DNA from: Zhouia amylolytica
Lineage (GTDB): Bacteria > Bacteroidota > Bacteroidia > Flavobacteriales > Flavobacteriaceae
Assembly (NCBI RefSeq): GCF_900116365.1
Contig: NZ_FPAG01000001.1
Location: 337,924-401,923 of the forward strand
DNA: 64,000 bases
Reading direction: 5' to 3'
The stretch's first letter is position 1; each line of letters opens with the position of its first letter. The notes under the pieces are model-generated. The model worked only from the letters and a program-made list of their open reading frames with translations, did no database searches and had not been told where the DNA came from. The position numbers and the translations under genes were made by a program. Positions 5,205 through 14,489 of the stretch are shown one piece after another.

Positions 5205-5345
5205 TCACTGTTTTGACACCCTGCGTCCTGCTACCTCCCCCAATTGGTGCATTAGTTCAGCTATATTAAAGTACAATACTACCAATATTAAAATTCCAAG
5301 TAATACATATACAGGATTCTTGAATAGGCTTTTAAGGTTTTTCAT
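5205..5345 (-). CDS. possible 46-residue single-pass membrane protein
   Basis: An ATG at 5345 opens a 46-codon frame ending in TGA at 5205, in the 361-base gap between the Asp-box gene and the MATE gene. The translation begins MKNLKSLFKNPVYVLLGILI and continues as one strongly hydrophobic helix followed by a charged tail (HQLGEVAGRRVSKQ). The positive-inside N-terminus, single helix and polar C-terminus look like a genuine small membrane protein, and the overlapping plus-strand frame looks less protein-like. No function can be assigned. Confidence 0.5.
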   Translation of the reverse strand: MKNLKSLFKNPVYVLLGILILVVLYFNIAELMHQLGEVAGRRVSKQ

Positions 5346-5438
5346 TTAGACACAAAATTTCAAGATGAATCTTATTCAATACAACAATGCTAATATATAA
5401 GATTTTTCTTAAAAAAAAGGTAGTCTTTTTGAAAAATA

Positions 5439-6830
5439 TCAAACAGCATTTTCCAACTTTGTCGTACGCCTAATTTCCCTATTCAAAAAATATGCAGTAA
5501 CAATGGTAGCTAAGAAATCTGCTATAGGGAAGGAGATCCATACACCTGTTTCACCATAGATTCCAGGCAATATAAGTATCAGAGGAATAAAGAAAAACCC
5601 TTGTCTGCTCAGGGTCAGGAGTAAAGCGGGGATTGCTTTCCCGATAGCTTGAAAATAGGCTGCTCCAATTAACTGAATAGCTATAATAGGCGTTGCCGCG
5701 AAAACCATCCTAAGTGCATCAGGAGCTTTGGCTAAAATGGTAGCATTGGTTTTTAATTCTTCCGGAGAGAGTGTACCATTACTCTTGAGGAATAGTTTTG
5801 TAAAGGCATCAGGGATAAAGAATATGATCAGGAAAACCAGCAAACCTACAAAACATGCTGTAATTATTGATTTATTGATCGATTCTCGCACCCGGGCATA
5901 TTTTTTAGCCCCATAATTAAAACCGGCTATCGGCAGAAAACCTTGAGTAATTCCCAAAACAGGAAACAGGACAAACATCAGCATTCTACCCACTATGGCA
6001 TATACAGAGACTAATGCCTCCCCTCCAAGGTTGAACAAGATATTATTCATAATCAAATAAATAATACTAACCACAGCCTGTCGTGCCAGGGTTACAAACC
6101 CAAGAGAGCCAATTTCAGAAACAATTTCTCTTTTAGGAATTAAATGAGTTATATTGATTTTAAGCTCTGAGTTTCTACTAAGAAAGAACCATAATATATA
6201 GGCAAAGCACATCAAATAAGACAAGGTAGTAGCCCAGGCGGCTCCATTCATGCCCATGTCGAACACATGAATCAACAGGTAATCCAGAAACAAATTTCCG
6301 ATGGTTGGTATGATCATGGCTATCATAGAATACCGTGGCTTTCCTTCTGCCCGTATTACATTATTACCCATCATGCATAAGGCCAGGAAAGGCACACCAT
6401 AGAGCACCACCGTGTAATATATTTTAGCGGGATCAAAAATGGCCCCCTTACCCCCAAAACTCGGGATGATATCATCGACAAAAATAAGGCCTGGAATTAC
6501 CATGCCGACGGTAATAAGGATCGTTAAAGTGATCTGGTTTCCAAAAGTAGTCAGGGCTTTCTCGGGATTTTCGGCTCCCAAAGCTCTGGAAATGATGGAC
6601 GAACCTCCAATTCCAATTGCCATTCCTAGAGCGGCAATAAAAAATGATACGGGTAATACTACATTGATTGCAGCGATGGCAATCGAACCTACCCATTTAC
6701 CCACAAAAATACTATCGATCAGGACATTCAGAGACATTACCAGAATCCCTACAGAAGCGGGTATAGCCTGCTTTACCAAGAGTTTACCAATTGGCTCTGA
6801 ACCTAAGTCGGTAGCACTAACCTTTGCCAT
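5439..6830 (-). CDS. MATE family efflux transporter
   Basis: 463 residues with about twelve transmembrane helices arranged as two repeats. It begins ATDLGSEPIGKLLVKQAIPA, the usual MATE N-terminus, followed by SIFVGKWVGSIAIAAINVVLP and GIGGSSIISRALGAENPEKA, both typical of bacterial MatE domains. The second half repeats the pattern (LGITQGFLPIAGFNYGAKKY). These proteins export cations or drugs in exchange for Na+ or H+. The start codon overlaps the hemH stop by one base (TAATG), so translation is likely coupled to ferrochelatase. Export of a porphyrin or haem-related compound is a tempting idea from the pairing alone; nothing in the sequence shows the substrate. Confidence 0.92.
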   Translation of the reverse strand: MAKVSATDLGSEPIGKLLVKQAIPASVGILVMSLNVLIDSIFVGKWVGSIAIAAINVVLPVSFFIAALGMAIGIGGSSIISRALGAENPEKALTTFGNQITLTILITVGMVIPGLIFVDDIIPSFGGKGAIFDPAKIYYTVVLYGVPFLALCMMGNNVIRAEGKPRYSMIAMIIPTIGNLFLDYLLIHVFDMGMNGAAWATTLSYLMCFAYILWFFLSRNSELKINITHLIPKREIVSEIGSLGFVTLARQAVVSIIYLIMNNILFNLGGEALVSVYAIVGRMLMFVLFPVLGITQGFLPIAGFNYGAKKYARVRESINKSIITACFVGLLVFLIIFFIPDAFTKLFLKSNGTLSPEELKTNATILAKAPDALRMVFAATPIIAIQLIGAAYFQAIGKAIPALLLTLSRQGFFFIPLILILPGIYGETGVWISFPIADFLATIVTAYFLNREIRRTTKLENAV

Positions 6831-7948: not shown

Positions 7949-8698
7949 TTATTCAATAGCATTTTCTCTGTTAAGACACCAAAGAATGCCCCCTAAAATA
8001 TGTTTTACAAAGAGCGGTTCATCATAAGATTCATGCGTATGTCCTCCACCAGTATAAAATATTCGGCTTCCTTCATAAACATGACTCCAGGCAATAGGAT
8101 GATTTTCCCCGTTTTTCCCTCCTTCATAACTAGATTCATCAAGGTTAATCAAAACCCTCACATCTGAATTCAGGTTCTTAAAGTTATACCACTCATCCTT
8201 CCGAATCCAGGTATCAGGCAGATGCTTACACGACGGATGATCTTTATCCAATACTTCCAACCTTGCCTCTTGAACTCTTGGATGATCAGAAAAATAGCCG
8301 CCAACCAGTTTCCCATACCACTCCCATTCAAATTCAGTGTCTGTGGCTGCGTGGATCCCTAAAAAACCCTTCTTGCTTTGGATGAAATTTTTAAACGCCA
8401 GTTCTTGCTTAGGGTTTAAAATATCTCCGGTAGTTGACAAGAAAACAATAAGGTCTATATTTTTCAGGAACGAATCGTTAAAAACGGATGCATCTTCTGT
8501 ATGTGTAACATTAAATCCATTTTGTTCTCCCAGCATTTTAACAAGCTTGACCCCTGTCTCTATCGAGCTATGTCGAAAGCCTGCAGTTTTAGTAAACAAA
8601 AGTATATTTTCATTTTGTGAGGAATCAACAGGATTTTGATTGTACCCCCATTGGAATAACAATCCTGCAATAATAGATAGTAAAAGCTTTTTTCTCAT
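7949..8698 (-). CDS. secreted ThuA-like domain protein
   Basis: 249 residues starting with a signal peptide (hydrophobic residues 5-16, mature protein from about GYNQNPVDS). The rest is one ThuA domain, a glutamine-amidotransferase-like fold: ILLFTKTAGFRHSSIETGV, then LIVFLSTTGDILN, GFLGIHAATDTEFEWEWYGKLVGGYFSDHP, and the terminal IFYTGGGHTHESYDEP. In the wider family ThuA proteins act in sugar metabolism (trehalose utilisation in rhizobia), but secreted Bacteroidota forms are uncharacterised. It starts 2 bases after the araC stop, so the two genes form a unit divergent from hemA. The substrate is unknown. Confidence 0.88.
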   Translation of the reverse strand: MRKKLLLSIIAGLLFQWGYNQNPVDSSQNENILLFTKTAGFRHSSIETGVKLVKMLGEQNGFNVTHTEDASVFNDSFLKNIDLIVFLSTTGDILNPKQELAFKNFIQSKKGFLGIHAATDTEFEWEWYGKLVGGYFSDHPRVQEARLEVLDKDHPSCKHLPDTWIRKDEWYNFKNLNSDVRVLINLDESSYEGGKNGENHPIAWSHVYEGSRIFYTGGGHTHESYDEPLFVKHILGGILWCLNRENAIE

Positions 8699-8700
8699 TG

Positions 8701-9561
8701 TTATGAGTTGGTTAAGGACATTAAATATTTTTTTGGTGTGGTTCCGAATTTCTTCTTAAAAGCAGCAATAAAATGACTTGATGTACTATACCCGACCTTT
8801 AAGGCTACTTCATTTACATTATGCTCACCACTTTCCAGCACCTTTCGGGCATACTCCATTTTATAATCAAACAAAAAACTATAAACCGAATCGCCATAAA
8901 CTTGTTTGAATCCTTCTTTCAACTTTTTCAAATTCAACCCTATTTCTTCAGAAAGTTCAGAAAGGGATGGTGGTTCTGCCATTCGTGCTATGACGATATC
9001 TTTTGCCTTACGTATTCTTCGGATGTTGTCTTCATCTATTAAAAAAGGGCATTGTTCGACATCTGCATCCTCGGGTTTATTGAAATACAAACTAATAAGT
9101 TCATATATCTTACCCTTTAGATAAAGTGTCTTAATAGAAGAATGCACATGGTAATTCATTATCTGACTTAAAGCTACTGCCATAGCAGGCGTAATAGGCG
9201 CATTGGTATAATACTTCTTATCTTTGTTATCTTCACTCAAGAAATGAATATAATCGGCTTCCTGGGAAAATAGCGAATGAAACTTTTTGATAGAAATCAA
9301 AACTGAAATAAGCCATGATTTCGGTTCCAATTCTAAATTGATAGGTAAATCCTGTTGTGGATTGTATAACAACAGCGCTTTCTCTTCGTTGACCTCAAGC
9401 GCATATCGCCCTTTATTAAAATTAAACTTAGAACTCCCCTTCAAGCAAAAATGCATTTGAATATAGCTACTATCTGCATGACGCTCATACTGTTGAGGAT
9501 CGTTACCGTCATTCTGTGTTTTTAACAAATAAAATCCGTCTGATATCTGAATTTCTTCCAT
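8701..9561 (-). CDS. AraC family transcriptional regulator, divergent from hemA
   Basis: 286 residues. The N-terminal ~170 form a sensor region with no clear ligand motif. Residues about 190-285 form the double helix-turn-helix of AraC/XylS proteins: PSLSELSEEIGLNLKKLKEG for the first HTH, and HNVNEVALKVGYSTSSHFIA followed by FKKKFGTTPKKYL for the second and the signature end. It is transcribed away from hemA across a 236-base intergenic region, with the ThuA gene behind it. One copy of a 26-bp direct repeat overlaps its start codon and the other lies near the hemA promoter. This suggests autoregulation and control of hemA, which is inference. Confidence 0.93.
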   Translation of the reverse strand: MEEIQISDGFYLLKTQNDGNDPQQYERHADSSYIQMHFCLKGSSKFNFNKGRYALEVNEEKALLLYNPQQDLPINLELEPKSWLISVLISIKKFHSLFSQEADYIHFLSEDNKDKKYYTNAPITPAMAVALSQIMNYHVHSSIKTLYLKGKIYELISLYFNKPEDADVEQCPFLIDEDNIRRIRKAKDIVIARMAEPPSLSELSEEIGLNLKKLKEGFKQVYGDSVYSFLFDYKMEYARKVLESGEHNVNEVALKVGYSTSSHFIAAFKKKFGTTPKKYLMSLTNS

Positions 9562-9585
9562 AGTTCCTGCAGCGTTATTTTTTTA
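9560..9585. promoter_or_regulatory. 26-bp direct repeat, copy 1 (araC start region)
   Basis: The segment 9560-9585 matches 9728-9753 at 23 of 26 positions, in the same orientation; the shared core is AGCGTTATTTTTTTA. This copy overlaps the araC start codon (9559-9561). AraC-family proteins commonly bind direct repeats, so this is a candidate operator. No binding is shown. Confidence 0.5.
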
Positions 9586-9616
9586 ATGATTCTCCTGCTT
9601 TTTAAATTCCTTTTTA

Positions 9617-9633
9617 TTTAGATTCGTTCTAAA
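9617..9633. repeat. 6-5-6 inverted repeat in the araC-hemA intergenic region
   Basis: TTTAGA (9617-9622), the loop TTCGT and TCTAAA (9628-9633) form a perfect short palindrome between the two copies of the 26-bp repeat. It may be an operator or chance in AT-rich DNA. Confidence 0.3.
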
Positions 9634-9727
9634 CAAAAATTTCTAAAAAGGCTTGATTATATCCAAATGTAAGGTATTTTAGCGTTTTCAACCCAATTCA
9701 AGGCCAAAAAATCTTAAAGCGACACAA

Positions 9728-9753
9728 ATAGTTCTTCTAGCGTTATTTTTTTA
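9728..9753. promoter_or_regulatory. 26-bp direct repeat, copy 2 (upstream of hemA -7 box)
   Basis: Second copy of the repeat at 9560-9585 with three mismatches. It ends 13 bases before the TATTTTTG box of hemA, so a bound protein would sit in the -20 to -55 region of the promoter, where activators usually act. Confidence 0.5.
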
Positions 9754-9766
9754 CCAATTGTACTTC

Positions 9767-9774
9767 TATTTTTG
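9767..9774 (+). promoter_or_regulatory. putative -7 box (TATTTTTG) of hemA
   Basis: TATTTTTG matches the Bacteroidota TAnnTTTG element and lies 23 bases before the hemA ATG, giving a leader of about 17 bases. There is no good TTG at -33, which would fit an activator-dependent promoter. Confidence 0.5.
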
Positions 9775-9797
9775 CTACCGATTATCAGATTTATTAC

Positions 9798-11051
9798 ATG
9801 GAAGCATACAACATAGCAAGAGGTAAATCTTTTTATGCCGTAGGGATAAGCTATAAAAAAGCAGATGCAGAGACACGTGGACGTTTTAGTCTGGATACCG
9901 TTGGAAAAGAAAGATTACTTGTTCAAGCTAAAGATGAAGGCTTAGAAAGTTTATTGGTTATTTCTACATGTAACCGTACAGAGGTGTATGGTTTTGCTCA
10001 GCACCCTTTTCAACTTATCAAATTAATTTGTGACAATTCCAATGGAACGGTAGAGGAGTTCCAACAAGTTGGCTATGTATGCAAAAACAACGATGCAATT
10101 GCACATGTATTCAGGGTTGGCACTGGTCTTGATAGTCAAATTTTGGGTGATTTTGAAATTATAAGTCAGCTAAAGCAGAGTTTTGCTGCCTCCAAGAAAT
10201 TGGAATTAACTGATCACTTTTTAGAGCGCTTATGCAACTCTGTTATTCAGGCAAGTAAGCGTATAAAAAATGAAACGGACATTAGTTCGGGGGCTACCTC
10301 GGTTTCATTTGCTTCAGTTCAATACATCATGAACGAGGTTGAAAACATTTCAGACAAAAACATTCTATTATTTGGTACTGGTAAAATTGGGCGTAATACA
10401 TGTGAGAATTTGGTAAAACACACCAAGAATGAACATATCACGCTTATTAACCGCACTAAAGATAAGGCTGAAAAGATTGCGGGTAAATTTAACCTCATCG
10501 TAAAAGACTACTGTGAATTACAAACAGAGATCTTAAATACCGATATTTTAATTGTATCGACCGGAGCTCAGCACCCTACTGTATCCAAAGACCTGATTCA
10601 TCGCACCAAGCCTCTTTTGATATTGGATCTGTCGATCCCTAAAAATGTGGCAAATGACGTGAGCGAACTGGACAATGTTACTCTTGTTCATTTGGATCAT
10701 TTATCACAAATGACCGATCAGACCTTAGAGCGAAGAAAAGCACACATTCCAAAAGCCGAACAAATAAACGAAGAGGTAAAAACAGAGTTCATTCAATGGT
10801 TGCAAACGCGGAAGTTTGCCCCAACCATTAAAGCTCTCAAGAAAAAATTAAAGTCTCTTAAAGATGCTGAAATTGATTTTCAGAGAAGAAAAATTGAAGA
10901 CTTTAATGAAGAACAGGCTACGATTATCAGTGAGCGTATCATTCAAAAGATCACTACTCACTTTGCTAATCACCTAAAAGACAACTCAAACACTTCAGAC
11001 GAAAGTATTGACTTAATTCAGAAGGTGTTTCAACTGGAAACCAAAGCGTAA
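9798..11051 (+). CDS. hemA: glutamyl-tRNA reductase
   Basis: 417 residues. It catalyses NADPH-dependent reduction of glutamyl-tRNA(Glu) to glutamate-1-semialdehyde, the first committed step of C5-pathway tetrapyrrole synthesis. The catalytic Cys58 sits in VISTCNRTEVY. It is followed by GLDSQILGDFEIISQLK, the Rossmann segment NILLFGTGKIGRNTCENL, and LLILDLSIPKNV. The C-terminal ~100 residues form the helical dimerisation domain. hemC begins on the very next base (TAA then ATG), so the two are co-transcribed. The gene is divergent from the AraC regulator. No glutamate-1-semialdehyde aminotransferase gene is in the window, so hemL must be elsewhere. Confidence 0.97.
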   Translation: MEAYNIARGKSFYAVGISYKKADAETRGRFSLDTVGKERLLVQAKDEGLESLLVISTCNRTEVYGFAQHPFQLIKLICDNSNGTVEEFQQVGYVCKNNDAIAHVFRVGTGLDSQILGDFEIISQLKQSFAASKKLELTDHFLERLCNSVIQASKRIKNETDISSGATSVSFASVQYIMNEVENISDKNILLFGTGKIGRNTCENLVKHTKNEHITLINRTKDKAEKIAGKFNLIVKDYCELQTEILNTDILIVSTGAQHPTVSKDLIHRTKPLLILDLSIPKNVANDVSELDNVTLVHLDHLSQMTDQTLERRKAHIPKAEQINEEVKTEFIQWLQTRKFAPTIKALKKKLKSLKDAEIDFQRRKIEDFNEEQATIISERIIQKITTHFANHLKDNSNTSDESIDLIQKVFQLETKA

Positions 11052-11992: not shown

Positions 11993-13735
11993 TTGAAAAA
12001 ATTACAGTATGCACGATTGACACTTCTAATTGTCGATTTTATCGTAATTAGCTTTCTTGTTTTCGACTTTGGTTTTATCGTATATGAGAAATTTAAAACT
12101 CATAAACTCATACTAATTTCTTGCTTAATACCTATTTTACTTGCTGTAAACATCTTTAGGTATTATCACCAGAAAAAATCCATAAAAAAAACACTTAGTC
12201 TTACCTATACCATACTATTTTCGATTGTTTTGGTAAGCAGTTTTATTATTTTTCTTTTTTCTCCTGAGCGCGCACTAGCGGATTTTCTTTTACATATGAA
12301 ACCTTACCTTGAGGGTTCCTTATTGCTATATCTGATTATTCGACTCAGTATTCTTATCAGGTATCTTTATAGCATTTATTTTAATCCTGCTATTATTTTT
12401 GTTGGGAGTTTTTTTATCATTGATCTTCTCGGAGCCTTTTTACTTATGTTACCGAAGGCCACCACCCAGGGTAATATTCATTTTATCGATGCCCTGTTCA
12501 CCGCAACCAGTGCTGTTTGTGTAACGGGATTAGCGGTTTTAGACACCTCAAAAGATTTCACAACCTTTGGACAGTCAATTATACTCTTTCTAATTCAATT
12601 AGGAGGCTTAGGGATCTTAACTTTCACCTCGTTCTTTGCCTTTTTCTTCAGAAGCGGATCGTCATTTAAGGAAGGTCTTTATTTAAAAGATTTTGTCTCT
12701 TCAGAAAATTTAAAAGACACCTTGCGTTTTGCTATGCAAATCGTCACCTTTACTTTGGGTATTGAAGCACTTGGCTCTATCCTGATCTACTTTTCTTTAG
12801 ACCATGCATCTGATATTCAAAATCCTGTTTTCTTTAGTGTGTTTCACTCCATATCGGCGTTTTGTAATGCGGGATTTTCGAATATATCCAATGGACTTTT
12901 TAATACTGACTTACAATTCGATTATTCGTTCCAATGGATTATTATGATACTAATTATCTTAGGAGGGCTTGGCTACAACATAGTTTTCAATTTTTATAGC
13001 TACTTCAAAGTTTTAATAAATAACCTAATATACCGAGAGCACAAAAAACCTATCGTAAGACTCATTACTTTAAATTCTAAAATCGTACTAGTAACCACTG
13101 TAATATTACTTATTGCCGGGTTTGCATTTTTTGGTATCAGTGAGTTTAACAACACGATTGCAGTACATGACAGTTGGCTGGGAAAATTTACAACTGCTGC
13201 CTTTCAGTCAGTGACCCCAAGAACTGCAGGATTTAACACAATTGATTATGGAAGCCTAGCCTTACCATCGATACTCTTTGTTATGCTATTGATGTGGATT
13301 GGAGGGTCACCAGCGTCTACTGCAGGAGGTATTAAGACGACAACCTTTGCATTAGCTACACTTAACATACTCTCTACTGCTAAAAATAAGCCTGAGATAG
13401 AAATCGGCACAAGGAGCATCCACAACGATACCATTAAAAGAGCTTTTGCCATTTTATGCATTTCATTGATTACGATAGGAGTCGCGATATTGTTATTGTT
13501 AATTTTTGAACCAGGCAAGGATTTATTGCATATTGCTTTTGAATGCTTTTCTGCCTATAGCACCGTGGGGTTAAGCCTTAACCTAACACCTGATCTCTCT
13601 AATGCCAGCAGACTGGTGTTAATATTGGTTATGTTTATCGGTAGAATTGGAATGCTTAATATTTTAATTGGGCTATTGAGAAGAATAAATTCGAAAATGT
13701 ATCAGTACCCAAAAGAAAACATTTTAATAAATTAG
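11993..13735 (+). CDS. TrkH/KtrB family potassium uptake membrane subunit
   Basis: 580 residues from a TTG start 23 bases after hemC. The N-terminal ~130 residues add extra membrane helices ahead of the core of four M1-P-M2 units. The four selectivity-filter loops are visible: TSAVCVTGLAVLD, SAFCNAGFSN, VTPRTAGFNTID and SAYSTVGLSLN, each with the conserved Gly. GGSPASTAGGIKTTT is the typical third-repeat segment. The protein would form the K+ channel-like pore, regulated by the RCK subunit encoded next. Its placement between hemC and hemD, with short gaps, suggests co-expression with haem genes. An ATG start is absent in this frame near the N-terminus, so TTG is preferred. Confidence 0.92.
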   Translation: MKKLQYARLTLLIVDFIVISFLVFDFGFIVYEKFKTHKLILISCLIPILLAVNIFRYYHQKKSIKKTLSLTYTILFSIVLVSSFIIFLFSPERALADFLLHMKPYLEGSLLLYLIIRLSILIRYLYSIYFNPAIIFVGSFFIIDLLGAFLLMLPKATTQGNIHFIDALFTATSAVCVTGLAVLDTSKDFTTFGQSIILFLIQLGGLGILTFTSFFAFFFRSGSSFKEGLYLKDFVSSENLKDTLRFAMQIVTFTLGIEALGSILIYFSLDHASDIQNPVFFSVFHSISAFCNAGFSNISNGLFNTDLQFDYSFQWIIMILIILGGLGYNIVFNFYSYFKVLINNLIYREHKKPIVRLITLNSKIVLVTTVILLIAGFAFFGISEFNNTIAVHDSWLGKFTTAAFQSVTPRTAGFNTIDYGSLALPSILFVMLLMWIGGSPASTAGGIKTTTFALATLNILSTAKNKPEIEIGTRSIHNDTIKRAFAILCISLITIGVAILLLLIFEPGKDLLHIAFECFSAYSTVGLSLNLTPDLSNASRLVLILVMFIGRIGMLNILIGLLRRINSKMYQYPKENILIN

Positions 13736-13796
13736 AGTCAGCTAATCATATTGTTTATGAGCAACATGAGGTATTTGAATTAATTAAATTAGCATT

Positions 13797-14489
13797 GTGA
13801 AAATTATAATATTTGGATTAGGAAATTTTGGAACCTCTCTAGCCTTGAAGCTTACTGAAACGGGTAATGAGGTTATAGGTATCGATCATAAAATGGAAAA
13901 GATCAATCTTGTTAAAGATAAAATTGCTCATACCATATGTATGGATGCAACAAATGAACTTGCCTATGATGCTATTCCACTTAAAGACACTAATATTGCA
14001 GTGGTCGCCATTGGAGAAAACGAAGGAGCTGCAATCATAACGACTGCCATTTTAAAGAAAATAACAAAAGCGGATATTATAAGCAGGTCACTTTCTCCTA
14101 TTCATGATACGGTTCTGAAAGCTATGGGCATCAATCGCATTGTTCATCCGGAACAGGAAGCAGCAGAAAAGCTGACCTCTAAGATTAACTTAAAAAACGT
14201 TATCGACAGCTTTAATATCGATAAGAACTATTCGATATCGGAAATAAAGATAAATGCAAGAATGGCTGGAAAAACACTGCAGGAATTAAGCTTCAGACAG
14301 CATTATAATCTCAATGTCGTAACCATATTAAGAGACTGTGAAAAGACCAATCTATTAGGAAACAAAATGCAGAAAAAAGAAGTTATTGGCATCCCTAATA
14401 ACGAGACAAAACTGCAAGAGAATGATATTTTAATTGTATTTGGTAACAATAATGATATAACGGCTTTTGGAGTCGATTTAGCTGAATAA
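13797..14489 (+). CDS. TrkA/KtrA family potassium uptake regulatory subunit (RCK)
   Basis: 230 residues from a GTG start. The N-terminal RCK_N domain has the nucleotide-binding loop IIIFGLGNFGTSLALKL, followed by an acidic residue after beta-2 in VIGIDHKMEK. A C-terminal RCK_C domain covers roughly residues 140-225, from YSISEIKINARMAGKTLQEL to ENDILIVFGNN. It would gate the TrkH-type pore encoded 61 bases upstream in response to nucleotide binding. hemD starts 12 bases after its stop, so the potassium pair sits inside the haem operon. Confidence 0.92.
   Translation: MKIIIFGLGNFGTSLALKLTETGNEVIGIDHKMEKINLVKDKIAHTICMDATNELAYDAIPLKDTNIAVVAIGENEGAAIITTAILKKITKADIISRSLSPIHDTVLKAMGINRIVHPEQEAAEKLTSKINLKNVIDSFNIDKNYSISEIKINARMAGKTLQELSFRQHYNLNVVTILRDCEKTNLLGNKMQKKEVIGIPNNETKLQENDILIVFGNNNDITAFGVDLAE

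Follow-up and report, generated by a model that had tools for sequence, protein, structure and literature searches.

The locus described here raised the question of whether the AraC-family protein encoded beside hemA in Zhouia amylolytica directly controls haem synthesis and its own gene, through which sites it would act, and to what signal it would respond. A preliminary description of the window, by which the whole 64,000-nucleotide stretch of DNA analysed here is meant, had proposed such direct control from a 26-bp direct repeat bracketing the araC-hemA intergenic region. A literature search, covering listings and abstract openings with subscription papers mostly outside its scope, returned no description of this regulator, and the matching of haem synthesis to iron or haem supply in Flavobacteriaceae seems to be undescribed. 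In alphaproteobacteria, haem synthesis is tied to iron and haem status by Irr and HbrL.

A regulator gene within a haem gene cluster

The genome that contains the window comprises 3.9 Mb in 17 contigs, and Flavobacteriaceae such as Galbibacter were the nearest named relatives of the locus among the loci fetched. In the window, araC and hemA form a divergent pair.

8701-9561, minus strand: araC, AraC-family regulator of 286 aa, HTH_18 (open reading frame; Pfam HTH_18, 7.1e-19; AraC-like fold)
9798-11051, plus strand: hemA, glutamyl-tRNA reductase (Pfam GlutR_N, Shikimate_DH and GlutR_dimer)

Downstream of hemA were found hemC, a hemD-like gene (below the NCBIfam cut-off), hemE and hemB, and hemH lies on the opposite flank of araC, which places the regulator within a haem cluster. 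Two open reading frames between hemC and the hemD-like gene (11993-14489) looked by eye like a potassium uptake pair of the TrkH/TrkA type. Between hemH and araC, positions 7949-8698 encode a protein of 249 aa whose N terminus is signal-like and for which no NCBIfam match was found at 1e-10; the position of this gene suggests that it is co-transcribed with araC.

Predicted operators in the araC-hemA intergenic region

The two copies of the 26-bp repeat were found on the same strand with 23 of 26 positions identical, as first described, and their likeness extended over 44 nt (77%). Among 200 dinucleotide-shuffled versions of the region, the best direct repeat of 26 nt had 15–20 identities. The sequence GTTCNTNNAGCGNTATTTT matched the 3.9-Mb genome perfectly at two places, each within the araC-hemA locus, and the next best among the genome matches listed had 2 mismatches. 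Also confirmed were the perfect 6-5-6 palindrome TTTAGA-TTCGT-TCTAAA inside 9616-9634, the distance of 13 bases from copy 2 to the hemA -7 box, and the absence of a TTG at -33 of the hemA promoter. The TTG is rare in homologous hemA promoters too, being present 17–25 bp before the -7 box in 31 of 223, compared with ~127 expected when the same letters were shuffled.

9560-9585, plus strand: repeat copy 1, at the araC start codon (sequence comparison)
9571-9587, plus strand: operator 1, single predicted AraC half-site in the leader of araC, AGCGTTATTTTTTTAAT (distance to the araC start unchanged in 224/226 regions; no 21-bp partner)
9664-9671, minus strand: araC -7 box TACATTTG (position; conserved block; CAAANNTA at this place in 151/227)
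9718-9734, plus strand: predicted left half-site of operator 2, AGCGACACAAATAGTTC (its CG found 21 bp upstream in 222/226)
9728-9753, plus strand: repeat copy 2, end of the left half-site and most of the right half-site (sequence comparison)
9739-9755, plus strand: predicted right half-site of operator 2, AGCGTTATTTTTTTACC, over the hemA -33 region (motif position; lag-21 identity)
9767-9774, plus strand: hemA -7 box TATTTTTG (site-2 motif beginning 36 bp away in 223/226)

The likeness of the copies stood, but the repeat did not hold as a functional unit of 26 bp: copy 2 makes up the right-hand portion of a 38-bp tandem (operator 2, 9718-9755), whereas copy 1 consists of a single half-site with a tail. 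The right half-site of operator 2, AGCGTTAtTTTT, has A.CGAtActaAaaGTtC exactly 21 bp upstream, and the identity at lag 21 was 5.14 of 8, compared with 0.8–2.96 for the remaining lags between 14 and 29. Because of this 21-bp tandem, the repeat first seen can be read as the end of one half-site followed by the next. No 21-bp partner was detected for operator 1, with identities of 2.81 at lag 21 and 2.82 at lag 26. AraC-family dimers use direct half-sites 21 bp apart. Both elements of an ara-type arrangement were sought and found: a pair of neighbouring direct half-sites at the target promoter (the tandem of operator 2) and one distant half-site (operator 1). In the window they are 168 bp (16 helical turns) apart. 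The position of its -7 box would place the araC promoter between the two operators, and the araC leader would then contain the palindrome and operator 1.

Conservation of the sites in Flavobacteriaceae

An AraC match (E ≤ 1e-35) was found in 236 of 249 genomes of the family and in 222 of 235 genera. In the first 110 loci (109 fetched plus the window), hemA was divergent from araC in 110/110, with a gap of 213–331 bp (230–241 bp in 100 of them). Their alignment showed near-invariant blocks within a variable spacer, namely the araC-start site, the palindrome, the minus-strand -7 box, a long block with copy 2, and the hemA -7 box. Altogether 227 regions (110 + 40 + 77) were scanned with motif models built from 110 of these. 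They represent 147 of the 236 AraC-bearing genomes, those with the better matches, plus 80 loci of another set, a census that favours genomes with closer AraCs; 209 of the 227 intergenic sequences were distinct.

Both sites scored above 8 bits in 226 of the 227 araC-hemA intergenic regions, and in 198 when the set was thinned to 199 dissimilar sequences; the exception (L227) had a poor site 2 of 2.4 bits. Site 1 was at a single offset from the araC start in 224 of the 226, and site 2 was 36 bp before TANNTTTG, the hemA -7 box, in 223 and 37 bp before it in the other three. The spacing of the sites was 164–170 bp in 220, the rest being 145, 147, 147, 156, 158 and 172 bp. Among 17 further loci of the same family, 14 were hemA-linked, two of these 14 being from genomes already counted, and all 14 had the sites; in the remaining three (L276, L278 and L279, one genus) AraC was detached from hemA, other genes lay upstream of AraC, and no AraC sites were found by the araC start. 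Beyond the 227 regions, the 12 hemA-less genomes were read apart (see below), and the reading of the further loci covered five of the 77 remaining AraC-bearing genomes, with the sites present in four (G125, G119, G174, G131) and AraC detached in one (G127).

In f7, a sister family of the same order, the araC-hemA gene order was kept in 4/4 loci read, suggesting that the hemA-linked arrangement came first. The AraC motif was unrecognisable in families f7 and f11. The preliminary description had made its reading depend on the repeat being kept in relatives with the same gene order; this held within the family (226/227, at fixed positions) but not recognisably in f7. The detached AraC in three genomes and the lack of a recognisable motif in f7 count against universality of the arrangement.

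As for helical phase, the spacings of 145, 147, 147, 156 and 158 bp are near whole turns less, and those of 172 and 164 bp are off phase; at the haem-uptake loci described below, 135, 135 and 136 bp are near phase and 122 bp (L197) is off. A period test on the deviants was weak, and the evidence for phasing is only suggestive. Compensating indels, considered as proof of looping, were discarded, since the effect came from shifting calls of the araC -7 box.

Pattern searches of the window's own genome for further AraC targets gave no second convincing target beyond hemA. The tandem pattern with up to 3 mismatches had 3 hits there, compared with 2 in the reversed control, and two of the 3 were the operators at the araC-hemA locus. 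The third (L397, G000 C8:18053; 3 mismatches) lies before a gene that by eye is cysteine desulfurase-like, and it may be due to chance.

A predicted Fur box in the araC leader

The accessible passages of PMC5609570 give a predicted 19-bp Fur box for Riemerella anatipestifer, ATTTAGAATTATTCTAAAT, with EMSA support at four promoters including that of hmuR, and those of PMC10434265 describe one at feoAB of Riemerella. The palindrome of the window lies within a box of this kind.

9616-9634, strand not assigned: predicted Fur box ATTTAGATTCGTTCTAAAC in the araC leader, holding the palindrome (15/19 to the published Riemerella box)

The araC leader matched 15 or more of the 19 Riemerella bases in 223 of 227 loci, compared with 33 of 3980 mononucleotide shuffles. 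The leader carries the 19-bp box by which a Fur-regulated leader is recognized, and the palindrome is, as its sequence indicates, a putative Fur box and not an AraC site. The palindrome as an AraC site was rejected on its match to the published Fur box; moreover, the uptake loci that keep the tandem have a best Fur match of 12–13 of 19, which is the shuffle level. The palindrome as an RNA hairpin was also rejected, its changes being by eye uncompensated among the rows shown. Since the palindrome matches the published box and lies in the araC leader, araC is probably under iron control. As in the Riemerella regulon described in the accessible part of PMC5609570, the 19-bp box is near a promoter and a start codon; unlike there, the box of the window is in the leader of a second regulator rather than of a transporter gene.

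No enrichment of the palindrome could be shown in its own genome, with 58 + 70 matches against 86 + 78 for the reversed control. A further six distinct sites were found there when up to 1 mismatch was allowed. Two precede TonB receptors, one immediately follows a ferritin gene, one is located between an SPOR protein and, by eye, a CxxCH open reading frame, and two are near non-iron genes. Matches with 2 mismatches, picked by eye, included one before feoAB (feoA-feoB) and those near an Mrp-like gene and an sdh-like gene (below the Pfam cut-off). The nearest AraC paralogue in this genome (L378 / L129, G000 C17:69167-70201; 30%) is encoded beside a TonB receptor gene with a Fur-like box upstream.

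The AraC protein and its linker Cys-Pro

The protein has the C-terminal double HTH of the AraC/XylS family (Pfam HTH_18 and HTH_AraC above cut-off) and, in the predicted structure, the N-terminal AraC-like barrel and dimer domain. The AlphaFold2 model (mean pLDDT 80.7, pTM 0.54) consists of a barrel, a floppy linker (residues 162–175, pLDDT <50) and an HTH domain. A PDB search with this model returned ToxT, Rns and the AraC dimerisation domain (1xja, 2arc; TM by target ~0.54–0.57), with a full-length TM of ~0.3. The NCBIfam equivalog names shown for this AraC were far below their cut-offs. Its HTH region presumably resembles that of PchR, a siderophore regulator; PchR-type regulators bind ferri-siderophore and control siderophore genes.

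9046-9051, minus strand: codons of Cys171-Pro172 in the interdomain linker, candidate haem-regulatory motif (Cys-Pro in 147/148 rows; linker pLDDT under 50)

The linker Cys was present in 148/148 rows and Cys-Pro in 147/148, amid variable residues and including f7, f11 and the uptake-linked proteins; the 148 rows comprise 127 (109 loci, the window and 17 further loci, three of them hemA-detached) + 12 + 5 + 4. All rows shown read CPF[LI] except L203 (CPNL) and L204 (CEGL). An ungapped comparison with 17 paralogues from the own genome detected no Cys-Pro in the corresponding stretch, which is missing from two of them, L381 and L382. According to the accessible parts of PMC4127239 and PMC4618611, a Cys-Pro core followed by a hydrophobic residue is a mark of haem-regulatory motifs, and this core and residue are found here. 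The basic residue that usually precedes the Cys was absent in most rows: the position is Q in the window protein and in the hemA-linked rows shown, and K, S, A or N in others.

Loss of hemA and association with haem uptake

At thresholds of 1e-35 for AraC and 1e-40 for hemA, 224 of the 249 genomes had both genes, 12 had AraC without hemA, 2 had hemA without AraC and 11 had neither; several of the genomes scored as hemA-less are incomplete. The two hemA promoters in genomes without AraC had no sites (2/2), and the -7 box TATTTTTG was kept in one of them (G023). The 11 members without AraC and detectable hemA (G016, G041, G095, G116, G136, G146, G167, G187, G192, G208 and G216) are perhaps haem auxotrophs or incomplete genomes.

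In six of the 12 genomes with AraC alone, araC was divergent from a TonB receptor gene followed by HmuY (L195, L196, L197, L200, L201 and L202). The 21-bp tandem was found in five of these (not in L195), and no Fur box was found in the five. A single site near the araC start was also observed in L196, L197, L200 and L202, at 135, 122, 135 and 136 bp from the right half-site, respectively, and the site at the araC start of L201 reads, by eye, AGCGATATTATT. In L197 and L201 the distance from the tandem to the -7 box is the same as at hemA, here before a haem-uptake operon. Of 30 loci in a survey of receptor-family promoters, based on the best of 55 matches, 28 were readable: 20 had Fur boxes only, five the tandem only, and three neither. 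HmuR-HmuY serves haem uptake in Porphyromonas. The six hemA-less relatives named above likewise have a TonB receptor and an HmuY-family protein, placed beside AraC; in five of them an AraC-type operator stands in place of Fur boxes.

In the other six genomes, the contig ended at araC (L199), or AraC was beside a hemC-hemD fusion with no sites (L193), beside a helicase-like gene as judged by eye (L194), or beside a neighbour without Pfam match and with AGCG half-sites that are not at the 21-bp pitch (L198); the last two were remote AraCs of 36–39% identity with the tandem still upstream (L203 and L204). There, the tandem and -7 box face by eye a short stretch with a terminator-like hairpin and no long open reading frame (L203 ~5300-5570, L204 ~5220-5490); in L204 this stretch may code for a His-rich peptide of 14 residues or for a small RNA. 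In the protein tree, the uptake-linked AraCs together with L194, L198 and L199 formed one clade of nine (support 89/95), and L193 was nested among the hemA-linked rows. The same regulator and operator before a haem-uptake operon in hemA-less relatives suggest that AraC acts as a haem-supply regulator.

Proposed mechanism and alternative explanations

Direct AraC control of hemA and araC, as claimed in the preliminary description, is the best reading because the sites are kept at fixed positions within the family (226/227) and are absent in the two AraC-less hemA genomes; on these comparisons it is well supported. AraC binding, the sign of regulation, looping and haem sensing are inferred. We consider it likely that AraC is a dedicated regulator of hemA and its own gene, with the loop, Fur and haem inputs proposed here. 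An AraC dimer on the direct half-sites 9718-9734 and 9739-9755 would lie over the missing hemA -33 element and recruit RNA polymerase. The single half-site 9571-9587, 168 bp away, probably lets AraC bridge the region, as E. coli AraC does from O2 to I1. In one state operator 1 and the near half-site would be bridged, which would keep hemA and araC repressed until one subunit is shifted by a signal to the neighbouring half-site; in the other, the two adjacent half-sites would be filled and hemA activated. Iron-loaded Fur probably limits the AraC level, given the published box, and the signal is probably haem, acting via Cys171 of the linker Cys-Pro; the clues toward haem are the place of AraC beside haem uptake in hemA-less relatives and the invariance of this Cys-Pro.

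The passages of PMC7408454 on E. coli araBAD describe adjacent direct half-sites (I1-I2) at the promoter and a lone distant half-site (O2). The locus in the window shares with araC-araBAD an AraC-family gene that diverges from its target, adjacent direct half-sites covering the -35 region (the -33 region in the window), a remote half-site on the leader side of the regulator gene and, probably, the same helical face at the commonest spacing. In contrast, the spacing in the window is ~168 bp (211 in ara), a Fur box lies inside, no CAP site was identified, and the target is the biosynthetic hemA with a promoter of the -33/-7 type; the loop and the ligand are here predicted. Like Irr and HbrL, the window AraC would be a transcription factor linking iron and haem status to haem synthesis, but those belong to the Fur and LysR families, whereas this regulator is of the AraC family, with different operators and in a different phylum. 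Irr is listed among haem-regulatory-motif proteins in the accessible text of the motif literature.

An activator of hemA that is itself repressed by Fur would be most abundant under iron starvation, where its benefit is not obvious; AraC may therefore act in starvation mostly as a loop-forming repressor, and become an activator with ligand. An alternative, in which AraC binds all these sites but is mainly a repressor that is made when Fur releases araC in starvation and that shuts hemA to prevent porphyrin build-up, would agree with the Fur box in the araC leader and with the overlap of operator 2 and the hemA promoter. Irr in rhizobia shuts haem synthesis in iron starvation in this way and prevents porphyrin build-up. 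We regard it as unlikely here, however, since hemA promoters without the -33 TTG suit an activator and since the same tandem stands before a haem-uptake operon (L197, L201), without a Fur box, where repression in starvation would hardly be useful. It is very improbable that a different factor binds the sites, or that they are elements of the promoter or of a leader RNA, with AraC a mere neighbour. Site 1 does touch the araC start codon and could serve translation, but the sites are gone where AraC is gone and hemA kept (2/2), they move with AraC to a different operon in 5 of the 12 hemA-less genomes, and direct half-sites at 21 bp are typical of AraC-family dimers.

The direct control preferred above could also answer to a signal other than haem, namely redox, iron or a ferri-siderophore, through a Cys thiol switch or a PchR-like siderophore sensor. 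This deserves serious weight, at somewhat under even chances: the Cys-Pro cysteines of haem oxygenase-2 act as a thiol/redox switch, according to the accessible part of the literature on them, the linker Cys is mostly preceded by Q, K or S in place of the usual basic residue, and the nearest paralogue is beside a TonB receptor gene with a Fur box. Against it are the gene contexts, which are haem synthesis and haem uptake, and the absence of Cys-Pro from the paralogues. The fullest form of the haem reading is a family-wide haem rheostat, in which a haem-sensing AraC would use its Cys-Pro to switch an ara-like loop across a Fur-controlled leader and so set the first step of haem synthesis, and in lineages that lost hemA would have been rewired, together with its operator, to import, replacing Fur; it is offered tentatively, as a conjecture that we consider less likely than not.

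Significance

The control sites between araC and hemA probably match haem supply to need. The locus offers a named regulator, exact predicted operators, a probable iron input and a candidate sensing residue, together with a natural experiment in which hemA is gone and the regulator is kept, now beside haem uptake. If the proposal is true, the ara layout would occur in a distant phylum, serving a housekeeping pathway with promoters of the -33/-7 type. If the rheostat reading is true, a haem-sensing, AraC-type loop switch would be the main haem regulator of Flavobacteriaceae.
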